From an uncultured Methanobrevibacter sp. (GTDB lineage Archaea > Methanobacteriota > Methanobacteria > Methanobacteriales > Methanobacteriaceae): a stretch of 42,364 nt of DNA. Below, in pieces: positions 21,412-33,893 of this stretch. The notes beneath the pieces were generated by a model that saw only the letters and a program-made list of their open reading frames with translations, was not told the DNA's origin and searched no databases. Where the stretch lies: positions 1 through 42,364 of the forward strand of contig NZ_CAJOKH010000034.1 of NCBI RefSeq assembly GCF_905235195.1, in the 5' to 3' direction. The position numbers and the translations under genes are program-made. Each line of letters begins with the position of its first letter. The stretch's first letter is position 1.

Positions 21412-24057
21412 TTAATGATTTTTTATCCAATCATATAATCTTTTTCTATTATTTTTATCATTAAATTTGAAAAACTTATCAACTCTTGATTTATATTCAT
21501 CTTTCATTTTACAGTTATTTTCAACATATTTCATTATCATCTGGACTAATTCATCTTCATTTTGAACAATTTCTCCAAATGCCATGGTTTCATAGTCAAA
21601 ATATCCTTTACCATAATGAAAATCGTCAAATGATTCTTTTTGATAATATAAAACAGGTTTTTTCAAGTAGGCAAAATCAAAGAAAACTGAAGAGTAATCT
21701 GTAACCATTAGTGATGCATCCCTAAACATATCCCTATAAGGTACATCTGAAATTTTAATATTATCATTAAAATCAAATAGATGTATAAACTTCCATAAAT
21801 TAGGATGAGGTCTAAATACCAGGGTGTATCCTTTTTTATCTAAAAATTCAATTAATTTATCATTATTTAAAAAACTTTTTAAGTATTTAAAATAATCTGA
21901 ATTTATAAATTGATCTTCTGTATCTAATTTTCTTCTCCAAGTAGGCATAAACAGTATTTCACATTTAGAATCATCCACTAAATTATCATATCTTGCAAGA
22001 CCTAAAGTTTGAACAACATCTTTTCCATAATTATAGTAGCCATTTACAATAGAATCACGTTCTAATGGAGAGCTTGTAACAAATAATAGCATTTGTCTAT
22101 TATATTTTCTAATCCAGCTAGATAAATCATGTAGAATTACACCATGTTGTATAAAACAAAACTCATGTGAAGATAAACCTTCAAAAACATATGTATTTTT
22201 ATATGGATTTATAAGGCTTCTTGTAATTTGTGAAGATATGATTTTATCTGCAAAGAAATAAAGTATTTTATGTTTAACTGATGAGAAGGGAACAATACTA
22301 CTACCATAATCATCTTTTAATCTCTTATAATCAGGGCTATCCTCTTTTATAAGGAAATATTTATTAATATTATCATCAATTTCATAGGAATATTTAAATA
22401 GCTGTTCTGCATTATCATCTGCAACTTCATCCCTATCAATAAATAGCCAAATATTCTTATTTTGCATAAAAGGGAATAATATTAATCTAGCAAATTTATA
22501 GAATAAAGCTGATTTTAAATCTTTTTCTTTTTTAAGTATAATTTTTCCAAATGAATAAGCTTCTAAATGAAGCATTCTCTTATAAGAAAATGGTTCAAAA
22601 TAGAATGTTTTAAGTTTAAAGTAAATAATTTTAGACTCTTTAACAAAATAATTATTAAATTTTGACATACCTGGAAATTGTCTAAAATCAATTCTATTAT
22701 CTATAATAACTTCCTTTCCATTTTCATTATAGACTAATCTAAAATTAATTTTACATTTATTATCATTATTAACTGGAACACTTACATCAAAATGATGATA
22801 ATAATTCCACCAGATACCTAAAAATTTACGAGATTTACGACCAGTAGTTACATACTCAAAGAATTTACTTTTATAAACTAGTTGGTTACCTTTATCATCT
22901 GTTTTTACTGCTTCAATATAAAATGTACTATTATCACAACGACTTAAAACACTTCCTGAAAAATTCAATACTCCATTGTGGAAATTTATAATATCAAAAC
23001 GAATAACATGTCTGTGGAGTTTACAGATTATATAATCGTTGGTTTTTAAATAAACCTCTTTTTTCTCTGGATATGTTTCTATATGGAACTCTTTATTTTT
23101 TAAATATATTAAAAATGATTTTACACTATCTCGAACCTTATTATCGGAATATACAAATTCTTCATCAAATATAGGTAAAATTTTATGAAAATAATCCCAG
23201 AATTCATCGATTTCTTCTTGAGTATCTAAGTATTGATATAAATCTTCAACTAAAACAATTTCTGTAAGTTCTTTAATAATAATATGTTGAATAAAATTAG
23301 GAACACGGCCATTATGATCTTTTGATATGTCAATTAATTTTAAGTAGAATAATTTGATTTTTTCTGTAAAATTCCTTTTAGTAATAGGGTCTTCAACAAA
23401 TCTATCATCTGTATTTCTTTTTCTAAAGAAATATCTTGAAGTATATACAGCCCCATATGCTCTTTTTTTAAGTAAAATTTCAGTGATTATTAAATTAACA
23501 GCACCGCTAACTAAATTAGTATCAAATTGAAAATTTTTTATTAAATCTGATTTAATAAAATTACTATAATATGGTAAAATTGATTGTGTAGGCTTTTCAT
23601 CTAAATTAACTACTAATTTTTTATTTAAGTCCATATATTCCAAATAATACTTATTCATCTGAGTTGAAAATATTACAACAGGAATATTTACTATATCAAT
23701 TTCATTATAATTGTTTTTAAAAAAATTATAAACTTCTTTTAATGTATCTTTTGAAAGTTTATCGTTAGCAAGTAAAAAATTTACATATTCTCCTTCAATA
23801 TAATTTAAAGCATAATTACAAGAATCTTCAAAACCCTTATTCTCCTTAGACAATAAAATTATATTTTCAGGATACTTTGATTTATACTGACTTATTATTT
23901 CATTACTATTATCAATACTACCATTATCTACTATGATAATTTGTACATTATCTTCAAAATTTAATGATTGATTAATAATTGAATCTAATGACTCATTAAT
24001 ATAAGATTGAGATTCAAAAAGAGAAATAATAATAGAAAATTTAAATTTTTTACTCAT
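21412..24057 (-). CDS. Bifunctional glycosyltransferase / CDP-glycerol glycerophosphotransferase-like protein
   Basis: This 881-residue protein has three parts. Residues 1-300 are a family 2 glycosyltransferase (KFSIIISLFESQSYINESLDSI, IIIVDNGSIDNS, then LLANDKL at the DXD position). About 320-500 is a beta-rich linker domain. About 530-881 is a glycerophosphotransferase of the TagF/TagB type, with QHGV near 655, LGLARYD, FMPTWRR, FRPHPN, VTDYSSVFFDFAYLKKPVLYYQ and GYFDY. TagF-like enzymes move glycerol phosphate from CDP-glycerol to a growing teichoic acid at the inner membrane face. No membrane helix is evident; a basic amphipathic stretch could attach it. It is followed upstream by a shorter paralogue in the same direction, 75 bp away. 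The polymer it makes is inferred. Confidence 0.88.
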   Translation of the reverse strand: MSKKFKFSIIISLFESQSYINESLDSIINQSLNFEDNVQIIIVDNGSIDNSNEIISQYKSKYPENIILLSKENKGFEDSCNYALNYIEGEYVNFLLANDKLSKDTLKEVYNFFKNNYNEIDIVNIPVVIFSTQMNKYYLEYMDLNKKLVVNLDEKPTQSILPYYSNFIKSDLIKNFQFDTNLVSGAVNLIITEILLKKRAYGAVYTSRYFFRKRNTDDRFVEDPITKRNFTEKIKLFYLKLIDISKDHNGRVPNFIQHIIIKELTEIVLVEDLYQYLDTQEEIDEFWDYFHKILPIFDEEFVYSDNKVRDSVKSFLIYLKNKEFHIETYPEKKEVYLKTNDYIICKLHRHVIRFDIINFHNGVLNFSGSVLSRCDNSTFYIEAVKTDDKGNQLVYKSKFFEYVTTGRKSRKFLGIWWNYYHHFDVSVPVNNDNKCKINFRLVYNENGKEVIIDNRIDFRQFPGMSKFNNYFVKESKIIYFKLKTFYFEPFSYKRMLHLEAYSFGKIILKKEKDLKSALFYKFARLILFPFMQNKNIWLFIDRDEVADDNAEQLFKYSYEIDDNINKYFLIKEDSPDYKRLKDDYGSSIVPFSSVKHKILYFFADKIISSQITRSLINPYKNTYVFEGLSSHEFCFIQHGVILHDLSSWIRKYNRQMLLFVTSSPLERDSIVNGYYNYGKDVVQTLGLARYDNLVDDSKCEILFMPTWRRKLDTEDQFINSDYFKYLKSFLNNDKLIEFLDKKGYTLVFRPHPNLWKFIHLFDFNDNIKISDVPYRDMFRDASLMVTDYSSVFFDFAYLKKPVLYYQKESFDDFHYGKGYFDYETMAFGEIVQNEDELVQMIMKYVENNCKMKDEYKSRVDKFFKFNDKNNRKRLYDWIKNH

Positions 24058-24132
24058 AAATTCACCGAAATAATAATTTAAAGCTAATTGATTATATTTA
24101 ATTAATATTATTTATATTTTTATAATTAGTAC

Positions 24133-26379
24133 TTAATTTTCCTTTAAGCTCCAATTATAAACTCTTTTAGAATTATTTTTATCATTATATTCAAAAAAGG
24201 TCTCTACTCTTTGTTTATACTTCTTAGTAATTTTACAATTATTTTCCATATAATGAATGATTAAATCAACTAATTTATCCTCATCTTGAATAATATCTCC
24301 AAATCCCATAGTTTTATAGTCAAAATAACCTTTATTAAAATGATATTCATCTTTTTCTTGATAATATATTATTGGTTTTTTTAAATATGCAAAATCGAAA
24401 AATACAGAAGAATAATCTGTAATAAGAAGTGAAGAAAAGTTAAATAAGTCTCTATAAGATTCATCTGCAATTCTTACATACTCCTCATCAATATCTAAAT
24501 AATCCAAATACTCTAAGATATTATAATGAGGTTTAAAAACAATTTTATATCCAAATTTTAAAAGATTTTCTTTTAATTTTTTATTATTAAAAAATCTGTT
24601 TAATCTTTTATAATAATCAGAATTTAAAAATTCTTCTTTATTTTTTATATATTTTCTCCATGTAGGCATGAATAATATATCTTTATTAAGATCGTTTTTA
24701 TTTTCTAAATAATCATAACGTGGAAGGCCTAGTAGTTGAACTATATCTTTATCATAATTATAATAACCATTTATTATAGAATCTCTCTCATAGGGAGAGG
24801 ATGTTAAAAATAAATCTAGATTATGATAATATCTTCTAATCCAATGGGATAAATCAGATTGTATTACTCCATGTTGAATGAAATACCTTCTAAATTTAAT
24901 TAAACTATTATAAAATTCTGGAGATTCATCGTTAAATGGATTTAAAAATACCCTATCTATATGACTTGAGAAATGTTTATCTGCAAAAAGATATAATATT
25001 TTATGTTTTAAAGATTTAAACGGAATAATATTCTTATAATCCTTAGATAATCTTTTATAATCATCTGTATTTTTATCAATGATAAAATATTTATCTATAT
25101 TGTCTTTTTGATCCATTGCATATTTAAATAAAATTTCCCCATTATCATCTGCTTGTAGTGGCCTATCTTCAAATAAAAATATTTTTTTATTTTTATAGAA
25201 TGGTTTTAAAATTAAATAAAGGATTCTCATAAAAATAGCCTTATGCCAAAATGGCTTTTTAGATTTAATAATCCGCAATAAAGATTTAAACTCAAATTTT
25301 AACATATTACCAGTTGAATAATCCCGAATATAAAAAGAATTTTCTCTAAATTCTAAAAGTTTAGTGCCTAGACATGTATAATTAGTATAATGAGATAAAT
25401 TAGCATGCTTTCTAAAGGATATCTTGTTTTTAATTATAATCTTATAATCTGCTTCGGTGAATATTGTTTTTAAAACTAGTTTATAGTCTTGAGATTCATC
25501 TAAAACTAATTTAATATTGAAATTATAATAAAATAACCAGTCCATACCTAAATATTTATAAGTTCTTCTATCAGTTAATGGATATTCTAATAACCTAGAA
25601 TTATATACTATTTTTTCACCGTTGCCTTCTAAAATAGCTTCAAAATCTAGACTATCATAATAAAAATTAGATTTAAAATACCCGTCAATGTTTAAAATTC
25701 CATCTTTTAAATCAAGAAAATCTATTTTAATATTTTCACTAGCCAAATCATCAATTAAATAATCATCAGTATATAATAAAACAGTTTTATCTTTAGAATC
25801 CAGTGTATATTCCTGATTATTTCTAATAAATATTAAAAATGATTTAATATCTTTATTTAAATAAGATTCGCCAATAATAGTTTCTTTAGAGATGTAAGTT
25901 AAAATATTAGAAATAGAAGAAATGATTTGTTTATATTCAAAATTACTAAATTCATCATAATTTAATTCAATGATTTCAAAAATATTAAATAGTAATAGAT
26001 TTTCAATAAAATATTTATTAGATTCTGTATATATATTAATTAAATCATTCATATGATGGATTTTTTCCTGGATAAATTCATTGTTTTTTAGTTTTTCACT
26101 TTCAATTATAATTAAATTAGAATTATTTTTAATATTAATATTTTTTATTAAATCTAAATCATTTTTACATAAAAAATAAATTGTATCTTTATCTAATCCT
26201 AAGTCTATTATTGAACCAAAATCAGAAAATATAGAAATATTAGGATAATTTTTATAAATGGATTTATCTTTAGAAATTAAATAGATATTAATATCAAAAT
26301 TAATATTTTTATAAAAATCTTTAAAGTATATATTAAATACTTGCTGAGATATGATAATTGAAAATTTAGATTTATCCAT
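24133..26379 (-). CDS. CDP-glycerol glycerophosphotransferase-like protein with degenerate N-terminal domain
   Basis: A 748-residue paralogue of the next gene downstream. The C-terminal TagF-like domain is complete: FIQHGVIQSDLSHWIRR, LLGLPRYD, FMPTWRK, FKPHYN, ITDYSSVFFDFAYLKKPIIYYQ and GYFDYKTMGFGD. The beta-rich middle region is also shared (ILNIDGYFKSNF, SFRKHANLSHYTNY). The first 190 residues begin KFSIIISQQVFNIYF like a family 2 glycosyltransferase but lack the VDNGS and DXD motifs and are about 130 residues shorter. This N-terminus therefore no longer looks catalytic. Its 5-prime end faces the plus-strand half of the cluster across a 198-bp divergent promoter region. Confidence 0.86.
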   Translation of the reverse strand: MDKSKFSIIISQQVFNIYFKDFYKNINFDINIYLISKDKSIYKNYPNISIFSDFGSIIDLGLDKDTIYFLCKNDLDLIKNINIKNNSNLIIIESEKLKNNEFIQEKIHHMNDLINIYTESNKYFIENLLLFNIFEIIELNYDEFSNFEYKQIISSISNILTYISKETIIGESYLNKDIKSFLIFIRNNQEYTLDSKDKTVLLYTDDYLIDDLASENIKIDFLDLKDGILNIDGYFKSNFYYDSLDFEAILEGNGEKIVYNSRLLEYPLTDRRTYKYLGMDWLFYYNFNIKLVLDESQDYKLVLKTIFTEADYKIIIKNKISFRKHANLSHYTNYTCLGTKLLEFRENSFYIRDYSTGNMLKFEFKSLLRIIKSKKPFWHKAIFMRILYLILKPFYKNKKIFLFEDRPLQADDNGEILFKYAMDQKDNIDKYFIIDKNTDDYKRLSKDYKNIIPFKSLKHKILYLFADKHFSSHIDRVFLNPFNDESPEFYNSLIKFRRYFIQHGVIQSDLSHWIRRYYHNLDLFLTSSPYERDSIINGYYNYDKDIVQLLGLPRYDYLENKNDLNKDILFMPTWRKYIKNKEEFLNSDYYKRLNRFFNNKKLKENLLKFGYKIVFKPHYNILEYLDYLDIDEEYVRIADESYRDLFNFSSLLITDYSSVFFDFAYLKKPIIYYQEKDEYHFNKGYFDYKTMGFGDIIQDEDKLVDLIIHYMENNCKITKKYKQRVETFFEYNDKNNSKRVYNWSLKEN

Positions 26380-26577
26380 ATGAACACGTTTATTAATAAA
26401 TAATTTAAAATTTCTTAATTATTATTTATATAAAATTTTATTTATATATTATTATTTAGAAAAGATAAGACTAATTAAATTTATATTTACATGAAAAAAA
26501 TTAATTTTAAAATAATAGTCAATATTATAAAGATTAAAGTAAATAAATTACTAATGATAAATTCTTAATGTGATTTT
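26380..26577. promoter_or_regulatory. Divergent promoter region of the glycerol-phosphate polymer cluster
   Basis: This 198-bp AT-rich gap separates the two halves of the cluster and must hold promoters for both directions. TTTATATATT-type sequences near 26447-26457 suit a minus- or plus-strand TATA box. TGTGAT at 26570-26575 is the probable ribosome binding site of the glycosyltransferase at 26578. No operator palindrome stands out. Confidence 0.45.
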
Positions 26578-27750
26578 ATGTATAAAATTTCCCTTATTAT
26601 ACCTGTTTTTAATATTGAAAAATATCTTGAAAAAAATTTTAAAAGTATTAAAAATCAAAGTATTGGCTTTTCTAATATTGAAGTAATATTTGTTGATGAC
26701 TGCTCAAGTGATAATAGTAGTCAAATAATTGATAAATGGGAAGATGATTATATTAATGTAAAAGTCATTCATCTAGATACTAATAGTGGATATGGAGGAA
26801 AGCCTCGTAATATTGGTATTCTAAATGCAAGTTCAGATTATGTTTTATTTTTAGATGGTGATGATTATTTAAATACTGACGGATTGGAAAAATTATATGA
26901 TGCAATTTCACAGGATAAAGATATTGATATTGCTATTGGAGGATACACTCGTTTAAATTCAGATAATACTATAAAAGAGAAGAAAATCCAATCAGATGAT
27001 AAAACATCCATTATATCTAATCCTAAAGAAGAATTAAAATTAATGGATTTGGCTCCTGCATTAGCTTCAAAACTCTTTAGGAAAGATCTACTAACAGAAA
27101 AAAATATTAAATTTAGAGAAGATATATCAGCTCAAGACTTAATATTTGTAAATGAAGCTTATTTTAAATCAAGTAAACTTATATTAATAAATAATTATTC
27201 TGTTTATAATTATAATATTAGAGATAGTGAAGATAAATCTGTATCACATAATATAAACTTAAAAACTCTTAAAAATAGCTTAAAAGCATATATTGCAATA
27301 TTGAAATTATGCAAAGATTTTGAAATAAATGAATATATGACAACAGCTTTAATATCTAATAATTTATACTCATATGTTAATAGAATACGAGATAATATTG
27401 AAGATAATACTCTAAAAAAAGAAGATATAGATGAATTATTTGAATCTGATGATTATAAAACCTTTAAAAACTCTTCGTTCTTTGAGAAAAATTACCCATT
27501 TAATGTGTTTTTTAGTAATTTAGAATATGGTGATTTTAAGAATAATTATTTTTTAAGAATCATTAAACATAATAAGATATATGAAAAAAGGTATCATGAT
27601 AATATAAAAGAATATAAAAGATTAAAAGCAGAATATAGAAAAATAAATAGAGAAAATAAAAAGCTTAAAAAAACACAAAATGAAATATTTTCATCTACAA
27701 GTTGGAAAATAACAAAACCCTTAAGAAATATTAAAGGAAAATTAAATTAA
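26578..27750 (+). CDS. Family 2 glycosyltransferase
   Basis: This 390-residue protein starts with the GT-A fold sequence KISLIIPVFNIEKYLEKNF, followed by VIFVDDCSSDNSSQII, GGKPRNIGILNASSDYVLFLDGDDYL (DGDD is the DXD motif, about residue 95-98) and APALASKLFRKDLL. This is the poly-glycan GT2 group found in capsule and teichoic acid loci. The C-terminus (about 340-390) is a basic coiled coil ending in SSTSWKITKPLRNIKGKL, a tail common in cell-surface glycosyltransferases. It is the first gene of the plus-strand half of the cluster and probably links or decorates the polymer. The sugar is unknown. Confidence 0.87.
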   Translation: MYKISLIIPVFNIEKYLEKNFKSIKNQSIGFSNIEVIFVDDCSSDNSSQIIDKWEDDYINVKVIHLDTNSGYGGKPRNIGILNASSDYVLFLDGDDYLNTDGLEKLYDAISQDKDIDIAIGGYTRLNSDNTIKEKKIQSDDKTSIISNPKEELKLMDLAPALASKLFRKDLLTEKNIKFREDISAQDLIFVNEAYFKSSKLILINNYSVYNYNIRDSEDKSVSHNINLKTLKNSLKAYIAILKLCKDFEINEYMTTALISNNLYSYVNRIRDNIEDNTLKKEDIDELFESDDYKTFKNSSFFEKNYPFNVFFSNLEYGDFKNNYFLRIIKHNKIYEKRYHDNIKEYKRLKAEYRKINRENKKLKKTQNEIFSSTSWKITKPLRNIKGKLN

Positions 27751-27819
27751 ATTAATAATAATAAAAATAATTTATAAAAGTCCATTGAAATATTATATAA
27801 AAAAAATTTTGGTGATAAA

Positions 27820-28945
27820 ATGTCTTTAGATAAACCGAAAATAAGTATTATAGTACCTGTATATAACACAGCTAATTACTTAGAAGAGTGTTTAGATAGT
27901 CTTGTAAATCAAAGTCTTGAAGATATTGAAATAATTTGTATTGATGATAAATCTGAAGATAATTCACCTGAAATATTAGAAAAATATGCCTCAAAAGATA
28001 ATAGAATAAAAGTTATACTTAATAAAGAAAATACAGGCCAAGCCATAGCTAGAAATATTGCCCTGAAATCAGTTAAAGGCGAATATATTGCTTTTATGGA
28101 TAGTGATGATAAAATTGATTTAGATGGATATGAAAAAGTTTTAAACTTCTGTGAAAAAAACTTTCTTGATATGGTATTATTTAATGTTGTAAGATTTGAT
28201 AAGAAAGGTATAATCGGTGAAAGTGAATTACATGAAAAATCTATACAAAATGAAACAAACTAGTATTTTAGAACATAAGGAATTTGTCTATGATACTTCC
28301 CCTTGTAATAAATTAATTAAAACAAGTCTTATAATGGATAATAATATAGAATTTATTAATAGGTTATATGAAGATTTATTATTTTCCATGGAATTATTTA
28401 GCTCTACAGATTCTGTTGGAGTTCTACCAGATGTGAAATACTATTGGAGAAGACGTAGAGACAGTCAAAATAAATCAACTACACAAAATAGAACAAATAA
28501 AAAAAATATAGCAGATCGTATGTTTATAATAAATAAAATAGATGAATTATTTAAATCAAATGAAAAATATAATTGTCTTCTAGATTCTTACCATTTTAAA
28601 TTACTAGAAATTGATTATCGATTATTTATAGACCAAATTGATATTGGAAATTCAGATTATAGAGAATTTATAATCAAAACCATAAAACCGATTATTGAAA
28701 CTTATCCAAAGGAACTGTTTAGAAATCTTAGTATGATTGATAAAATAAAGTATGATTTTTTAATTGATGATAAAATAGATGAATTGATTTATATACGTGA
28801 AAAAGAAAGAAATTATAATTTTTATTTTAAACAAAATCAAAGGTTAAACCAAGAAATTAAAACTGTTAAATCTACTAAAGGGTGGATAAATTATAAAAAA
28901 AATAATTTAAGTGTTCGTTTTAAATCAAAAATAGGTAAAAATTAA
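27820..28945 (+). pseudogene. Family 2 glycosyltransferase split by a frameshift
   Basis: Two overlapping frames make one glycosyltransferase. The first (27820-28263) reads KISIIVPVYNTANYLEECLDSL, ICIDDKSEDNS, GQAIARNIALKSVKGEYIAFMDSDDKID, so it holds the nucleotide-binding and DXD region, and stops at 28261-28263. The second, whose longest open form begins at 28217, continues from about 28263 with TSILEHKEFVYDTSPCNKLIKTSLI, YEDLLFSMELF and a basic Trp-containing tail, as in intact family members. Passing from one to the other needs a net one-base forward shift near 28225-28262. It may be a recent inactivation, a phase-variable site or a sequence error. GGTGATAAA lies just before the ATG at 27820. 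The next gene, gpsA, starts 11 bp after the stop. Confidence 0.83.
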
Positions 28946-28956
28946 TTGGTGATTAA

Positions 28957-29925
28957 ATGAATGTAGGTATTATTGGTGCTGGTAGTTTAGCAACAGCAAT
29001 TGCCCAAACAGTAGCATTAAATGTTGATGAAGTAATCCTTTTTCTTAGAAGAGAAAAACTTAAAAGTAGTATAAATGAAAATCATTGCAATAGTGAATAT
29101 TATCCAAATATAAGATTAAAAGATAATATTATTGCAACAACAGATATTAATGATTTAAAGGATTGTAAAATTATTTTCCTAGCAATACCTTCATCTGCCT
29201 TTAGAGATATACTTATAGATTTTAAAAAAATTATTAAAAATGATATAATTCTTGTTACAACAGCAAAAGGTATTGAATATCCTTCCCTTAAAACAATGGG
29301 TAAAATCATTGAAGATTTTTTTGACAATGACTATGTAGCCTTATCTGGACCAAATTTTGCATCTGAAATTGTTTTAAACCTTCCAACTATTACAAATATT
29401 GCATCATATAATCCTCTAAATTCTAAAATCGTAAAAGAAGTTCTTGAAACAGAAGACTTTAAAGTTAAAATCATTGATGATGTGCTTGGATTAGAATTAT
29501 CTGGTGTAATTAAAAATATTAATGCAATAGCTAATGGTATTTGTGAAGGTATGAATATTAATGAAAATGCTAGATATTCCGTGCTTACAAAAGGATTTAG
29601 GGAAACTAAAGATATAATTAAAAGTTTTGGAGGAGATGAATCTACTGCAAGTGAATACTGTGGTTTCGGTGATTTGGTTTTAACCTCAACATCTTCTGAA
29701 AGTAGAAATCATACACTAGGTATGTTATATGGTCAGAGAATTATAGTTGATGAGAAAGCTAGTGGTATAGTTTTTGAAGGGAAAAATTCAATAATGGCTA
29801 TTAAAGATATTTGTACTAGAACAAATACTAAAAGTCTTATTGTAGATTTTGTTTATGATGTAATAGTAAAACAAATTCCTCCAAAAATAGCATTTAAAAC
29901 ATTGTGGAGTAAAATAGAATATTAA
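28957..29925 (+). CDS. gpsA: NAD(P)-dependent sn-glycerol-3-phosphate dehydrogenase GpsA
   Basis: GpsA reduces dihydroxyacetone phosphate to sn-glycerol-3-phosphate in the cytoplasm. The 322-residue protein has the N-terminal dinucleotide fold (GIIGAGSLATAIA, residues 4-16), TTAKGIE with Lys104, SGPNFASEI, ELSGVIKNINAIANGICEG with the catalytic-type Lys186, and NARYSVLTKGFRE with the substrate-binding Arg region. Archaeal membrane lipids use sn-glycerol-1-phosphate made by a different dehydrogenase, so GpsA here is probably dedicated to another product. Its position between glycosyltransferases and the nucleotidyltransferase and TagF-like genes indicates that it supplies the building block of a glycerol-phosphate polymer. 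GGTGATTAA gives a strong ribosome binding site; the next gene starts 15 bp downstream. Confidence 0.93.
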   Translation: MNVGIIGAGSLATAIAQTVALNVDEVILFLRREKLKSSINENHCNSEYYPNIRLKDNIIATTDINDLKDCKIIFLAIPSSAFRDILIDFKKIIKNDIILVTTAKGIEYPSLKTMGKIIEDFFDNDYVALSGPNFASEIVLNLPTITNIASYNPLNSKIVKEVLETEDFKVKIIDDVLGLELSGVIKNINAIANGICEGMNINENARYSVLTKGFRETKDIIKSFGGDESTASEYCGFGDLVLTSTSSESRNHTLGMLYGQRIIVDEKASGIVFEGKNSIMAIKDICTRTNTKSLIVDFVYDVIVKQIPPKIAFKTLWSKIEY

Positions 29926-29940
29926 AAAAATTGTGATATT

Positions 29941-30708
29941 ATGATAGGAGTAATTTTAGCTGCAGGTATGGGTACAAGATTAATGCCTCTTACAAAAGAT
30001 ATTCCAAAGGCACTGCTTAAAATTAATGATATAACTCTACTTGAGAGAATGATTAAAAACTGTATTGACTCTGGTATTTGCAAATTTATTGTTGTAATTG
30101 GATATAATGGTGAAAAAGTAGAACAATTATCAAAAAAACTTGAAGATAAATATAATATAGAAATTAAAATTATAATAAATGAAAAATATGATATAACTAA
30201 TACTTCTGTTTCAACTTATCTTGCAAGTAGATTTATTGAAAAAGAATCTTTAGATGATTTTATATTAGTTAATGGAGATAATGTAGTAGATCCATTAATT
30301 ATTAAAAGACTTAGTAAAAGCAGTAATAGTTCTATGATAATTGATAACTATAAGCAGTTAAATGAAGAATCTTTTAAATTAATTATTGATAATAAAAGTT
30401 TTAACAATGATAAAACAATTACTAATGGAATAATCAATTCTATTGGAAAAGAATTAGATATTGATAGTTCTACTGGAGAGTTTATTGGAATTTCTAAAAT
30501 TGTTAAATCAGACATTAGTGATTTTAATAAATTTTTAAATGAATCTATTAATGAAAATCCACAAAACTATTATGATTTTTCATTTAAAGATTTAAGTGAA
30601 ATTAAAACAATTGATTTCATCTTAACAAATGGATTAAAATGGAGTGAAATTGATGATATTAATGATTGGGAATATGCCCAAAGACTAGTTGAGGAACTTG
30701 AAGGCTAA
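29941..30708 (+). CDS. Sugar-type nucleotidyltransferase, candidate glycerol-3-phosphate cytidylyltransferase
   Basis: This 255-residue protein has the NTP_transferase fold: MIGVILAAGMGTRLMPLTKDIPKALL at the N-terminus (nucleotide loop residues 6-14, Lys23), then NTSVSTYLAS, VNGDNVVDP and a C-terminal WSEIDDINDWEYAQ. The pattern NTS..TYLA and the end resemble LicC-type choline-phosphate cytidylyltransferases. It differs in fold from TagD, the usual glycerol-3-phosphate cytidylyltransferase (HXGH type). Since it lies between gpsA and a TagF-like gene, I infer that it makes CDP-glycerol, or CDP linked to a related phospho-alcohol. CMP-choline or a sugar nucleotide remains possible. TGTGATATT sits before the ATG; it is cotranscribed with gpsA. 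Confidence 0.82.
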   Translation: MIGVILAAGMGTRLMPLTKDIPKALLKINDITLLERMIKNCIDSGICKFIVVIGYNGEKVEQLSKKLEDKYNIEIKIIINEKYDITNTSVSTYLASRFIEKESLDDFILVNGDNVVDPLIIKRLSKSSNSSMIIDNYKQLNEESFKLIIDNKSFNNDKTITNGIINSIGKELDIDSSTGEFIGISKIVKSDISDFNKFLNESINENPQNYYDFSFKDLSEIKTIDFILTNGLKWSEIDDINDWEYAQRLVEELEG

Positions 30709-30811
30709 TAATTTCTTATAACACATAAGTTTAATATTGATTTATTTAAAAAAAATATAAAAATAAAAAAAATAAATTAAAATATAAAGATTTGATTAAA
30801 AAAGGGATAAT

Positions 30812-32020
30812 ATGGCGAAAACATTTAAAAAACAATTAAAGGACATAATTTATAATACTGCTAAATATTCTGCAAGAGCTTTATATTATATAGCTTCCTA
30901 TATTATACCTCCAAATGAAAATATTATCCTGTTTGAATCAAGTAATGGTCGTAATTATACTGGTAATCCTAAATCCATATATGAAGAAATTCTAAATCAA
31001 GGCCTTGATAAGGAATTTAAATCTGTTTGGGTACTAACAAATACAAAAACGGAAATACCTGGAAATCCTATAAAAGTTAAAAAACCATTTTTCAAATTTT
31101 TATATTACACTCTTCGAAGTGGTACTTGGATATTTGATTCAAGACATTTATATTATCTTAAAAAAAATAAAAACACTAAATATATCCAAACTTGGCATGG
31201 TACTCCACTTAAAAAGTTAGCACTAGATATGGATTATATTGATATGAGTGGAAATCAGGACATTACCCAATATCATGATGATTTTAGAAAAAATTCTCAT
31301 CTCTGGCAATATCTAATATCACAAAATTCATATTCATCAAATATCTTTAAACATGCTTTTGACTTTAAAGGTGAATTTTTAGAAATTGGTTATCCAAGAA
31401 ACGATATATTAATTCATAAAAATAATCCAAAAGATATAGAGACAATTAAATCAAAATTTAATATTCCAACTGATAAAAAAATCATTCTTTATGCTCCAAC
31501 CTGGAGAGATAATGAATATTATAAAAAAGGCGAATATAAATTTGCAACTGAAATGGACTTTGATATGCTTTATGAAAAACTTAAAGATGAATATTACTTA
31601 ATCGTTAAATTCCACTATTTAGTTAAAGATAATATTGACTGGAGTAAGTATGGGGATTTTGTAATAGAATGTGATGCTGATTGGGATATACAGGAATTAT
31701 ACCTTATATCTGATATAATGATTACTGATTATTCATCTGTAATGTTTGATTATGCTCTTTTAAAAAGACCTATGCTTTTCTATACATATGATTTAGACAA
31801 TTATAAAAATAATCTAAGAGACTTTTACTTTGATATGGTTAGTGAGGTTCCAGGTCCTATATGTATGACTACAGAAGATCTTATAGATTTTATTAATAAT
31901 AGTTTAGATGAATATGAAAATCTTTATGGGGAAAAATATAAAAAATTTAATGATAAATTTAATGAATTTGATAATGGTGAAGCATCAAGGAAGGTAATAG
32001 ACTTAATTAGAGATAATTAA
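30812..32020 (+). CDS. tagF: CDP-glycerol glycerophosphotransferase (TagF/TagB-like)
   Basis: This 402-residue protein is a stand-alone teichoic acid glycerophosphotransferase. It has a short basic N-terminal helix for membrane association, then FESSNGRNYTGNPKSIYEEI, TWHGTPLKKL (His129), IGYPRNDIL, LYAPTWRDNE (about 227-235), VKFHYLVKD, MITDYSSVMFDYALLKRPMLFY (305-326) and EVPGPI. His and the TDYSS segment match the catalytic sites of TagF and TagB, which transfer glycerol phosphate from CDP-glycerol to a membrane-bound acceptor. Unlike the two large paralogues it has no extra glycosyltransferase domain. It follows the nucleotidyltransferase by 103 bp, with GGGATAAT before the ATG. Whether it primes the chain or extends it cannot be told from sequence. 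Confidence 0.93.
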   Translation: MAKTFKKQLKDIIYNTAKYSARALYYIASYIIPPNENIILFESSNGRNYTGNPKSIYEEILNQGLDKEFKSVWVLTNTKTEIPGNPIKVKKPFFKFLYYTLRSGTWIFDSRHLYYLKKNKNTKYIQTWHGTPLKKLALDMDYIDMSGNQDITQYHDDFRKNSHLWQYLISQNSYSSNIFKHAFDFKGEFLEIGYPRNDILIHKNNPKDIETIKSKFNIPTDKKIILYAPTWRDNEYYKKGEYKFATEMDFDMLYEKLKDEYYLIVKFHYLVKDNIDWSKYGDFVIECDADWDIQELYLISDIMITDYSSVMFDYALLKRPMLFYTYDLDNYKNNLRDFYFDMVSEVPGPICMTTEDLIDFINNSLDEYENLYGEKYKKFNDKFNEFDNGEASRKVIDLIRDN

Positions 32021-32336: not shown

Positions 32337-33893
32337 ATGAAAAATAAAAAAATATATTTATTAGCATTATTATTCCTTCTTTGTATTTTAAGTATTCAGG
32401 CCAAAAGTGCAACAGAAAATACTACAGACAAAGATATAATTAGTGTTGATAATAATAAGAGACTACTAATTTAGAAACAAATATCCGATATGATGACGTT
32501 TCAATTAGTTAAGAGAATGTTGAACTTAAAGAAGAAGAAAATAATAAGGATAATCAATATAAGTCTGGAGCAGATGAAAGCACAACATTGATGAAGATCC
32601 ATTAACTTTCACAGACTTAAATAATACGATTAATGGAAATGAGAATTCTACAATCTACTTATCTAATGATTACAAATTTAATAATGATTCAGACCATAAC
32701 TTATATGAAGGAGTCAAAATTACCAGAGATTTAACGATTTATGGTAATGGAGCAACAATAGATGCAAACGATATGGCAAGAATATTTAATGTCATTGATA
32801 ATCATAATGTTAACTTTTACAATATAACTTTCATAAATGGAAATAGAGAATTAACAGATGGTGGAGCAACACATTTTAGTAATGCAACTGACTGTATATT
32901 TACTCAAAATGAAGCAGGAAAATATGGTGGAGCAATAGAAATTGGTAATGCATCTAATTGTCAGTTCATTGGAAACAAATCAGGAGTAGATGGTGGAGCA
33001 ATACAAAATGAGGATGTATACAACTTCATATTTAACAAAAACCAAGTAGAAGAAAATGGAGGAGCACTAAATCAAGAAAATGCAACTATTAATGTTTCAA
33101 AAGCAAATACATCAGTTATTATTGACCCTATTGAAGCAATATTAGGAAAAGAAATAACAATAAAATATACCACTGAAAGTAATGGAACAGTAACAATCAA
33201 AGTTAATGGCCAAGAAATAAAAGACGGTAAATTCACACCTACTAAAATAGGTATTTATAATCTAACTATAGAAGTTGCAGAAGATGAATGCTACACTGCC
33301 ACAACAAACCAAACCACATTTACAGTGGAAAAATTAGCAAGTAAAATTACTGCAAAACCAGTTACTACTACTTATAATCTAGGTAAATATTTGACAATTA
33401 CATTAAAAGATTCAAATGGTAAAGCTATACCTAATACATATATAACAGTAAACATAGGAAGCAAAAAATATAAAACTAATAGTAAAGGCCAAGTAAAAAT
33501 CAATATTGCAAAGCTTACACCAAAAACCTATAATGTAAAAATTAAATATGCAGGATCAGATATTTATAATGCGTCTACCGGATCTGTAAAACTCACATTT
33601 AAAAAAGCAACCCCAAAAATAACAGCAAAATCAACAAGTTACAAACTTAATTTAAAAACTAAAAAATACTAGCAATCTTTAAAGACAATAAAAACAAAGC
33701 CCTTAAAAACACAAAAATAAGCTTAAAAGTTAATGGTAAAACATATACAACTAAAACTAACAGTAAAGGCCAAGCAACATTTACAATAAGAAACCTAAAC
33801 AAAAAAGGTTCATACACTGCAGTTATTACAGTCCCAAGAAACAGTTACTACAATCAAGTAAATAAAAAAGTAAAAATAACTGTAAAACCATAA
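32337..33893 (+). pseudogene. Adhesin-like surface protein, decayed
   Basis: An intact start at 32337 gives a signal peptide (MKNKKIYLLALLFLLCILSI then QAKSA). The rest needs at least four repairs: a frameshift near 32460, a TAA at 32510-32512, a frameshift near 32585 and a frameshift near 33668, where the longest open stretch stops at TAG 33670-33672. Domains in order are a parallel beta-helix (GVKITRDLTIYGNGATIDAN, NGGATHFSNATDC, repeated YGGAIEIGNASNCQFIGNKS), then two Ig-like repeats (TAKPVTTTYNLGKYLTITLK, SKGQVKINIAKLTPKTYNVKI and TTKTNSKGQATF). This is the adhesin-like family of gut methanogens, predicted to be exported and wall-associated. The longest single frame is 32773-33672, 299 codons. 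Confidence 0.87.

Follow-up and report, generated by a model that had tools for sequence, protein, structure and literature searches.

A GpsA-linked gene cluster predicted to make a teichoic-acid-like envelope polymer in Methanobrevibacter

The gene cluster described here is very probably responsible for a surface polymer of glycerol phosphate that resembles bacterial teichoic acid. It lies in the window, i.e. the whole stretch of 42,364 nucleotides analysed, which originates from a rumen Methanobrevibacter. There are good grounds to think that the cluster is a dedicated unit supplying the donor and the transferases for an envelope glycopolymer of this genus that is similar to teichoic acid or to a capsule. 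Somewhat more cautiously, we favor the view that GpsA of the Methanobacteriales is no membrane-lipid enzyme and that, together with a hitherto unrecognised LicC-type CTP:sn-glycerol-3-phosphate cytidylyltransferase unrelated to TagD, it feeds a TagF-type envelope polymer. If this is true, these archaea make both enantiomers of glycerol phosphate and hold them separate, sn-1 for lipids and sn-3 for the envelope.

The genes flank a single divergent intergenic region (Table 1), as had been proposed by a sequence-only reading of this DNA, and are otherwise separated by 75, 69, 11, 15 and 103 bp, in agreement with the range of 11 to 103 bp given there. A Pfam profile search of positions 21412 to 32020 recovered all three predicted TagF-type domains as PF04464 (372, 159 and 152 bits; gathering cut-off 22.1), and the genes of GpsA and the nucleotidyltransferase were also found in their places. 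The QHGV motif was located in A and B, TWHG in G, and PTWR as well as TDYSS in all three proteins, each of which had been named before. Only the number of family 2 glycosyltransferases had to be raised from two to three GT2 domains, since protein A begins with one, too. The gene, domain and motif findings are well past chance level. The presumed archaeal host was corroborated by Cdc6/Orc1, DP1 and CbiG genes on the same contig and by near relatives bearing the name Methanobrevibacter.

Table 1. Features of the cluster, with positions in the window
Feature	Position	Strand	Evidence or remark
A, 881 aa: GT2 (GT-A), middle domain and TagF-type domain	21412..24057	-	PF00535 E 2e-20; PF04464 E 3e-44
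B, 748 aa: middle domain and C-terminal TagF-type domain	24133..26379	-	PF04464 E 3e-46
Divergent intergenic region B/C, 198 bp	26380..26577	.	well kept in near-twin contig
C, 390 aa: GT2 glycosyltransferase	26578..27750	+	PF00535 E 1.5e-31
D: frameshifted GT2 glycosyltransferase gene	27820..28945	+	PF00535 E 1.5e-39
E, 322 aa: GpsA, predicted NAD(P)-dependent sn-glycerol-3-phosphate dehydrogenase	28957..29925	+	PF01210 E 2e-37; PF07479 E 1e-34
F, 255 aa: LicC-type nucleotidyltransferase, proposed CTP:sn-glycerol-3-phosphate cytidylyltransferase	29941..30708	+	PF00483 E 1e-16
G, 402 aa: predicted TagF/TarF-type CDP-glycerol glycerophosphotransferase	30812..32020	+	PF04464 E 3e-111

The product of gene E exhibits the N- and C-terminal NAD_Gly3P_dh domains, the GPNFA motif and the SRN region, and matches the solved GpsA structure 1z82 (E 6e-41). 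The lipid enzyme EgsA is encoded separately in the host genome (E 2e-149). F belongs, as far as its sequence tells, to the LicC/GlmU (GT-A) type and not to the TagD type. Its nearest relatives in the PDB are LicC (1jyk, E 2e-13, about 22% identity) and PntC, both of which are CTP-dependent, and the same two proteins were the top Foldseek matches (E about 1e-18) of its predicted structure (pLDDT 94.9). Residues R13, K23 and D113 of F are invariant among 30 aligned sequences and are plausibly the counterparts of the active-site R, K and D named for related inositol-phosphate and phosphoglycerate cytidylyltransferases (PMC12275187). One member of the superfamily, CpgD, acts on phosphoglycerate, a close analogue of glycerol-3-phosphate. 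F shares with LicC, PntC, IMPCT and CpgD the fold, the active-site residues and, by prediction, the use of CTP with small phosphorylated alcohols or acids; unlike them, it is operon-linked to GpsA, and for none of the members found has use of glycerol-3-phosphate been reported. From the linkage to GpsA we infer that F uses CTP and glycerol-3-phosphate. The CDP-glycerol building block probably comes from an enzyme that has no relation to the usual bacterial one. TagD (TIGR01518) did not exceed the cut-off in any of 100 genomes, and in the host genome only weak matches to frames of about 150 aa were obtained (E 4e-8 at best).

The association of both genes extends over the order. GpsA is present in all 42 Methanobacteriales genomes carrying F, and 35 of 44 F copies lie on the same strand within 158 bp of GpsA. 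The pair occurs in three families, in two of which, further to that of the host, the gaps are near zero or the genes overlap. Canonical TagF-class domains are confined to genomes with GpsA and F (19/19 versus 1/24 others; Fisher P 2e-11 with genomes treated regardless of kinship). PF04464 proteins were also encountered in Methanobacteriales genomes that lack GpsA or F, including two of the same genus (G001 and G003), which indicates that at least some of them use another donor. In Methanothermobacter-like relatives F, GpsA and a Wzx flippase form one operon with TagF-type genes alongside. A fusion of a TagD-like protein with a dehydrogenase adjoins GpsA in five relatives, four of which harbor F elsewhere in the cluster; there, F might act on another substrate.

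Of the three TagF-type proteins, G aligned with TagF of S. epidermidis (3l7i, E 5e-91), its H129 and H268 corresponding to H444 and H584 of that protein. With the TarF model it yielded E 3e-99 and 333 bits, below the equivalog cut-off of 550, under which A and B (49 and 51 bits) also remained; G can therefore be designated a PF04464 family member and a candidate TarF. In protein A the N-terminal GT2 (GT-A) domain is followed by a middle domain common to A and B (BLAST E 2e-29) and by the TagF-type domain, in which H638 and H751 are the two catalytic-type histidines. The best match of the GT2 part among solved structures was 5tze (E 1e-11), deposited as 'glycosyl transferase', which we take to be TarS. 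The structure model of protein A was of poor quality (mean pLDDT 51). Protein B possesses H503 and H618 in its TagF-type domain; neither a GT2 domain in B nor a match of B to PDB sequences was detected. The catalytic-type histidines are kept in 72/72 and 74/74 PF04464 sequences whose aligned domain spans them. In the tree of PF04464 domains, A and B are located far from TagF beside bacterial sequences of unassigned donor, while the clade of G contains a Lachnospiraceae sequence, showing that bacterial exchange took place.

The assembly has gene D in a broken form, which counts against our main reading. Its two open reading frames (27820-28263 and 28217-28945) jointly match one 376-aa gene of the near-twin contig, and five bases are missing compared to this intact homologue.

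It had been stated that the window lacks a polymer exporter; this is true of the window and speaks against our main reading. The host genome, however, encodes a candidate ABC exporter resembling TarGH or Wzm-Wzt on another contig (C30), next to which a polyprenyl sugar transferase and a fourth PF04464 protein are encoded. The best model for its ATPase is of the TagH type (E 1e-62, under the cut-off), and the permease matches Wzm-type proteins and TarG. Linked candidates for TagGH-like exporters, which had been suggested as a search target, exist in relatives: in those similar to M. thaueri, an ABC pair with an ATPase matching TagH best is encoded about 2.6 kb away from GpsA-F. In the host genome (96% complete) no match to PF03816 (LCP wall ligase) or PF03808 (TagA linkage-unit transferase, WecG family) was found. 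The absence of TagA and LCP also counts against our main reading. Because TagD, TagA and LCP are missing, the host genes do not make up the bacterial set for wall teichoic acid; judging from gene content, the pathway is teichoic-acid-like and does not qualify as wall teichoic acid synthesis.

By its family function, GpsA would convert dihydroxyacetone phosphate to sn-glycerol-3-phosphate, from which F would form CDP-glycerol with CTP. G, and perhaps A and B, would transfer glycerol phosphate from CDP-glycerol to a membrane-bound acceptor, and the GT2 domain of A together with gene C may add sugar, as the architecture and the capsule polymerases with GT-A and TagF-like domains suggest. Export of the chain would proceed either through a TagGH/Wzm-Wzt-type ABC transporter whose genes lie at another site in the genome or through a flippase of the Wzx type. 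EgsA, the sn-glycerol-1-phosphate enzyme, would supply the lipids separately, so that each enantiomer is probably reserved for a different product. Such a CDP-glycerol route would explain why a "bacterial" glycerol-phosphate gene not needed for membranes has been kept in this archaeal group. As for the envelope polymer of sn-glycerol-3-phosphate postulated before, a polymer containing glycerol phosphate is still the best reading; to judge from the fusion of GT2 and TagF-type domains, plain poly(glycerol phosphate) is less likely than a sugar/glycerol-phosphate copolymer.

Compared to wall teichoic acid synthesis in Bacillus and Staphylococcus (TagD-TagA-TagB-TagF-TagGH-LCP), the archaeal system is similar in its TagF-type transferase with matching catalytic histidines, in the predicted provision of glycerol-3-phosphate by GpsA and, perhaps, in having a TagGH-type exporter in the genome. 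It differs by the LicC-type enzyme in place of TagD, by TagA and LCP not being found in the host genome, and by the archaeal host, for which pseudomurein is expected. Like A, the Gram-negative capsule polymerases Cps3D, Cps7D and C. jejuni HS1.09 combine a TagF-type domain with a glycosyltransferase in one protein, and a poly(glycosylglycerol phosphate) product is expected in both cases; those systems employ cytidylyltransferases of the TagD type, and their GT-B/GT4 domain is C-terminal, in contrast to the N-terminal GT-A (GT2) domain of A. Archaeal CDP-glycerol formation is cited for Archaeoglobus fulgidus in PMC8262930 as an activity whose gene is unidentified, which prefers sn-glycerol-1-phosphate and is tied to glycerophosphoinositol, not to a wall polymer. 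For the synthesis of CDP-glycerol in archaea, F offers a candidate gene. In our literature search on archaeal teichoic acids only papers on M. ruminantium were found. For this species, homologues of teichoic-acid genes and a high wall phosphate, comparable to that of teichoic-acid walls, were reported in 2010; the main text on strain M1 names no donor route, GpsA link or non-TagD cytidylyltransferase (PMC2812497). The teichoic-acid idea is therefore not new for the genus; new is the dedicated module of GpsA and a non-TagD cytidylyltransferase, and the cluster offers a genetic explanation of why the wall of M. ruminantium is rich in phosphate. Archaeal GpsA has figured in the debate about the lipid divide and about the membrane that the last common ancestor had. 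In the data set of Yokobori and others it was included only from Archaeoglobi and Methanobacteria, and they saw no informative gene structures (PMC5059525). Its linkage in an operon with a module for a CDP-alcohol and an envelope polymer suggests a different, testable job for GpsA. For rumen methanogens, which are relevant to methane mitigation, this yields a candidate both for a surface antigen and for a drug target.

Several other explanations have to be weighed, the most serious of which concerns the donor of A and B. There is close to an even chance that these proteins use a sugar-phosphate or ribitol-phosphate donor and that G alone uses CDP-glycerol, which is compatible with our reading of E, F and G. 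Their remote position in the domain tree near bacterial sequences, the QHG in place of TWHG and the occurrence of such genes in Methanobacteriales without GpsA or F are in line with this, as are TagF-like folds capable of hexose phosphate transfer (PMC8262930); on the other hand, A and B retain the catalytic-type histidines and lie together with GpsA and F in a cluster that is conserved in both contigs of the genus. We regard it as rather unlikely that the glycerol phosphate from the CDP-glycerol module is attached to a wall polysaccharide or a glycoprotein of the surface only as a side chain or linkage unit, so that neither poly(glycerol phosphate) nor a repeating backbone arises. TarF-type enzymes can add few units, and G, resembling TagF/TarF, could add one or two instead of a long chain; moreover, GpsA-F of M. 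thaueri-like relatives has no PF04464 gene nearby, and in relative L054 a LicD-type transferase is encoded near the pair. Yet three TagF-type domains and GT2 domains accompany the module in the window, and A is built like the bacterial capsule polymerases that combine GT-A with TagF (PMC8262930).

Still less probable is that F, like LicC, is a cytidylyltransferase for phosphocholine or another phospho-amine that decorates the polymer, with GpsA serving another purpose. LicC and PntC are its nearest solved relatives and LicD-type genes occur in the clusters of some relatives, but GpsA accompanies F wherever F is present, TagF-class domains track the pair, and the phosphocholine reading was rejected because LicD, its supporting gene, is absent from the host genome. 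Only a very slight chance is given to a foreign or decaying cluster, recently acquired from bacteria or a contamination, and functionless in the archaeon. The Lachnospiraceae sequence in the clade of G and the frameshift in D would suit it; against it stand the GpsA-F pair in three families of the order and a cluster 80-91% identical in a second species. Contamination was rejected in view of the archaeal core genes on the contig and of the GC and GC3 contents of the cluster, which are similar to those of the remaining contig.

Among 60 non-Methanobrevibacter loci compared by BLAST, no GpsA match indicative of a bacterial GpsA-F-TagF triad was obtained. At four loci (L073, L086, L098 and L119) a PF04464 gene was observed near an F homologue.

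The cluster is real and conserved, and its predicted function resembles teichoic acid or TagF-type capsule synthesis, the enzyme functions being assigned from homology and gene linkage. Homologues of teichoic acid genes have been described in M. ruminantium M1 by Leahy and others, where wall phosphate was cited to be as high as in teichoic acid walls (PMC2812497), and mru_1079, annotated as a teichoic-acid-type transferase, was up-regulated with lauric acid (PMC5816558). Thus, an archaeal teichoic-acid-like polymer has already been published as a suggestion. New are the dedicated module of GpsA (sn-glycerol-3-phosphate dehydrogenase) and a LicC-type nucleotidyltransferase (F), its order-wide linkage and its co-occurrence with the TagF class, the absence of TagD, TagA and LCP, and likely candidates for the exporter.

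An ORF list and Pfam and NCBIfam scans of the window confirmed the three TagF-type domains (PF04464), GpsA and the nucleotidyltransferase described around a divergent region by the sequence-only reading. The gaps measured 75, 69, 11, 15 and 103 bp, in agreement with the claimed 11-103 bp. Family 2 glycosyltransferases (GT2) were also present, though with three domains instead of two, the extra one residing at the N-terminus of protein A. The contig is archaeal, since it harbors Cdc6/Orc1, the DP1 polymerase subunit, CbiG and CbiB; the GC3 of the cluster resembles that of the remainder. The named relatives are rumen Methanobrevibacter.

Genes of the cluster and the region dividing them
Feature	Position	Strand	Evidence
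A, 881 aa, GT2 + PF04464	21412-24057	-	Pfam/NCBIfam
B, 748 aa, PF04464	24133-26379	-	Pfam/NCBIfam
Divergent intergenic region, 198 bp, separating A/B from C-G			
C, GT2	26578-27750	+	Pfam/NCBIfam
D, GT2, broken	27820-28945	+	Pfam/NCBIfam
E, GpsA	28957-29925	+	Pfam/NCBIfam
F, nucleotidyltransferase	29941-30708	+	Pfam/NCBIfam
G, PF04464	30812-32020	+	Pfam/NCBIfam

Among the TagF-type transferases A, B and G (TRANSFERASES), protein G matched TagF from S. epidermidis over its catalytic half (3l7i) with an E value of 5e-91. Its residues H129 and H268 align with TagF H444 and H584, both of which are catalytic (entry 3l7j has N at 444). With 333 bits against the TarF model (equivalog cut-off 550), G is therefore a family member and not a proven TarF. 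Both histidines are kept in A (H638, H751) and B (H503, H618), and none was lost in the members covering these columns among 74 domain sequences. A and B have a middle domain in common (BLAST E 2e-29), and in a tree of the domain sequences the TagF-type domains of both are placed at a long distance from TagF. In capsule polymerases of the TagF-like kind, the domain that transfers glycerol phosphate or hexose phosphate is joined to a second one, either GT-A at the N-terminus or GT-B at the C-terminus (PMC8262930). Because the architecture of protein A corresponds to the first of these, with GT-A at the N-terminus, its product would more likely be a copolymer (sugar/glycerol-phosphate or sugar/sugar-phosphate) than plain poly(glycerol phosphate).

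F is unrelated to TagD. Its closest solved relatives by sequence are LicC (1jyk, E 2e-13) and PntC (6pd1), which were also the top structural matches of its AlphaFold model (mean pLDDT 94.9). CpgD, a member of the same superfamily, converts phosphoglycerate to CDP-glycerate and has active-site R, K and D in common with an inositol-phosphate enzyme (PMC12275187). In F, R13, K23 and D113 are invariant across 30 aligned sequences; judging by motif spacing, we read them as the putative equivalents of these residues. A literature search yielded no report of a glycerol-3-phosphate enzyme in this superfamily. TagD above the cut-off was found in none of the 100 sampled Methanobacteriales genomes, the genome of the window contig giving weak matches only.

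The search of Methanobacteriales for a conserved gene set, which the sequence-only reading had proposed, revealed that GpsA and F are linked order-wide and match the canonical TagF class. Out of 100 genomes, 50 contained GpsA and 42 close homologues of F, all 42 of the latter together with GpsA. Of the 44 copies of F, 35 shared the strand of GpsA and were no more than 158 bp away from it. Such pairs came from all three families sampled, and the gaps measured -1 to 8 bp in the two families to which the window genome does not belong. Taking PF04464 E < 1e-88 as the canonical TagF class, a cut picked after the data were seen, GpsA and F were both present in 19/19 complete-information genomes with this class versus 1/24 others (Fisher P 2e-11, kinship ignored). 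Weaker PF04464 proteins were also seen where GpsA or F is lacking, two genomes of the same genus among them, and thus not all PF04464 proteins here draw CDP-glycerol from the GpsA-F route. In one genome (G012) lacking F, a TagD-like fusion resides 3′ of GpsA, which suggests that the fusion and F can replace one another; four further genomes hold both in the cluster, so that F may act on another substrate there. Some Methanobrevibacter (L140, L141, L147) carry GpsA of a second clade, near a TagD-like and dehydrogenase-like fusion of ~440 aa. LicD-like genes and one resembling class V aminotransferases are also close by, and the group may represent a further pathway to a CDP-alcohol. On a Kerfeldbacteria contig (L071:6001-9500), an F homologue adjoins an Fe-ADH_2 (glycerol-1-phosphate dehydrogenase-like) gene, accompanied by a CDP-alcohol phosphatidyltransferase and a second nucleotidyltransferase.

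The genome of the window contig encodes EgsA, the sn-glycerol-1-phosphate dehydrogenase (NF002022, 497 bits, cut-off 413), so that lipid synthesis does not require GpsA. In the data set of Yokobori and others, archaeal GpsA came from Archaeoglobi and Methanobacteria only, and the authors stated that gene structures were of no help (PMC5059525); the operon link seen here does provide help.

No exporter or wall ligase had been noticed in the window. Neither an LCP ligase nor TagA was found in the whole genome, and an exporter candidate sits on another contig, C30. The claimed teichoic-acid-like synthesis thus holds as a resemblance to TagF-type capsule or teichoic acid formation; with TagD above the cut-off, TagA and LCP missing from the genome, the cluster falls outside the wall teichoic acid pathway as it is defined for bacteria. 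C30 carries an ABC-2 permease and a 1027-aa protein with a C-terminal ABC ATPase, for which the best NCBIfam models are of the TagH type, though with scores below the cut-off. The same contig holds GT2 genes, a polyprenyl sugar transferase and the fourth PF04464 gene of the genome. This arrangement of a PF04464 gene beside a TagH-like ABC ATPase has a similar counterpart in RUG012, a near-twin of a second species (loci of this type: L034, L036). Since PF04464 genes of the C30 type also occur in two genomes of the same genus without GpsA and F (G001, G003), their donor is probably other than CDP-glycerol from the GpsA-F module. A candidate for the proposed linked TagGH-like exporter was encountered in relatives resembling M. 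thaueri (L061 to L066), whose ABC pair lies ~2.6 kb from GpsA-F; the ATPase of L061 best matched TagH (7dd0, E 3e-55). Relatives that are probably Methanothermobacter-like (L050, L142, L143) possess a tight operon of F, GpsA and a Wzx flippase with TagF-type genes alongside, and several Wzx-type flippases are encoded in the genome of the window contig.

The RUG012 contig OMVX01000039.1 (20,274 bp; L035/L051) showed the identical gene order with 80-91% protein identity. Just 3′ of the cluster, at 32773-33672, an adhesin-like ORF with Chlam_PMP and Ig-like (Big_3_5) similarity was detected. PurE and UbiD are encoded at the start of the window contig (293-2721); in several relatives (L047, L056, L139, L144) they lie immediately 5′ of GpsA, the window arrangement differing by ~26 kb. 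Gene D is a single 376-aa gene in RUG012; the window is 5 bases short and out of frame. This deletion, relative to the intact homologue, lies outside any long homopolymer run, and candidate origins of the split are a real pseudogene, strain variation or an assembly error.
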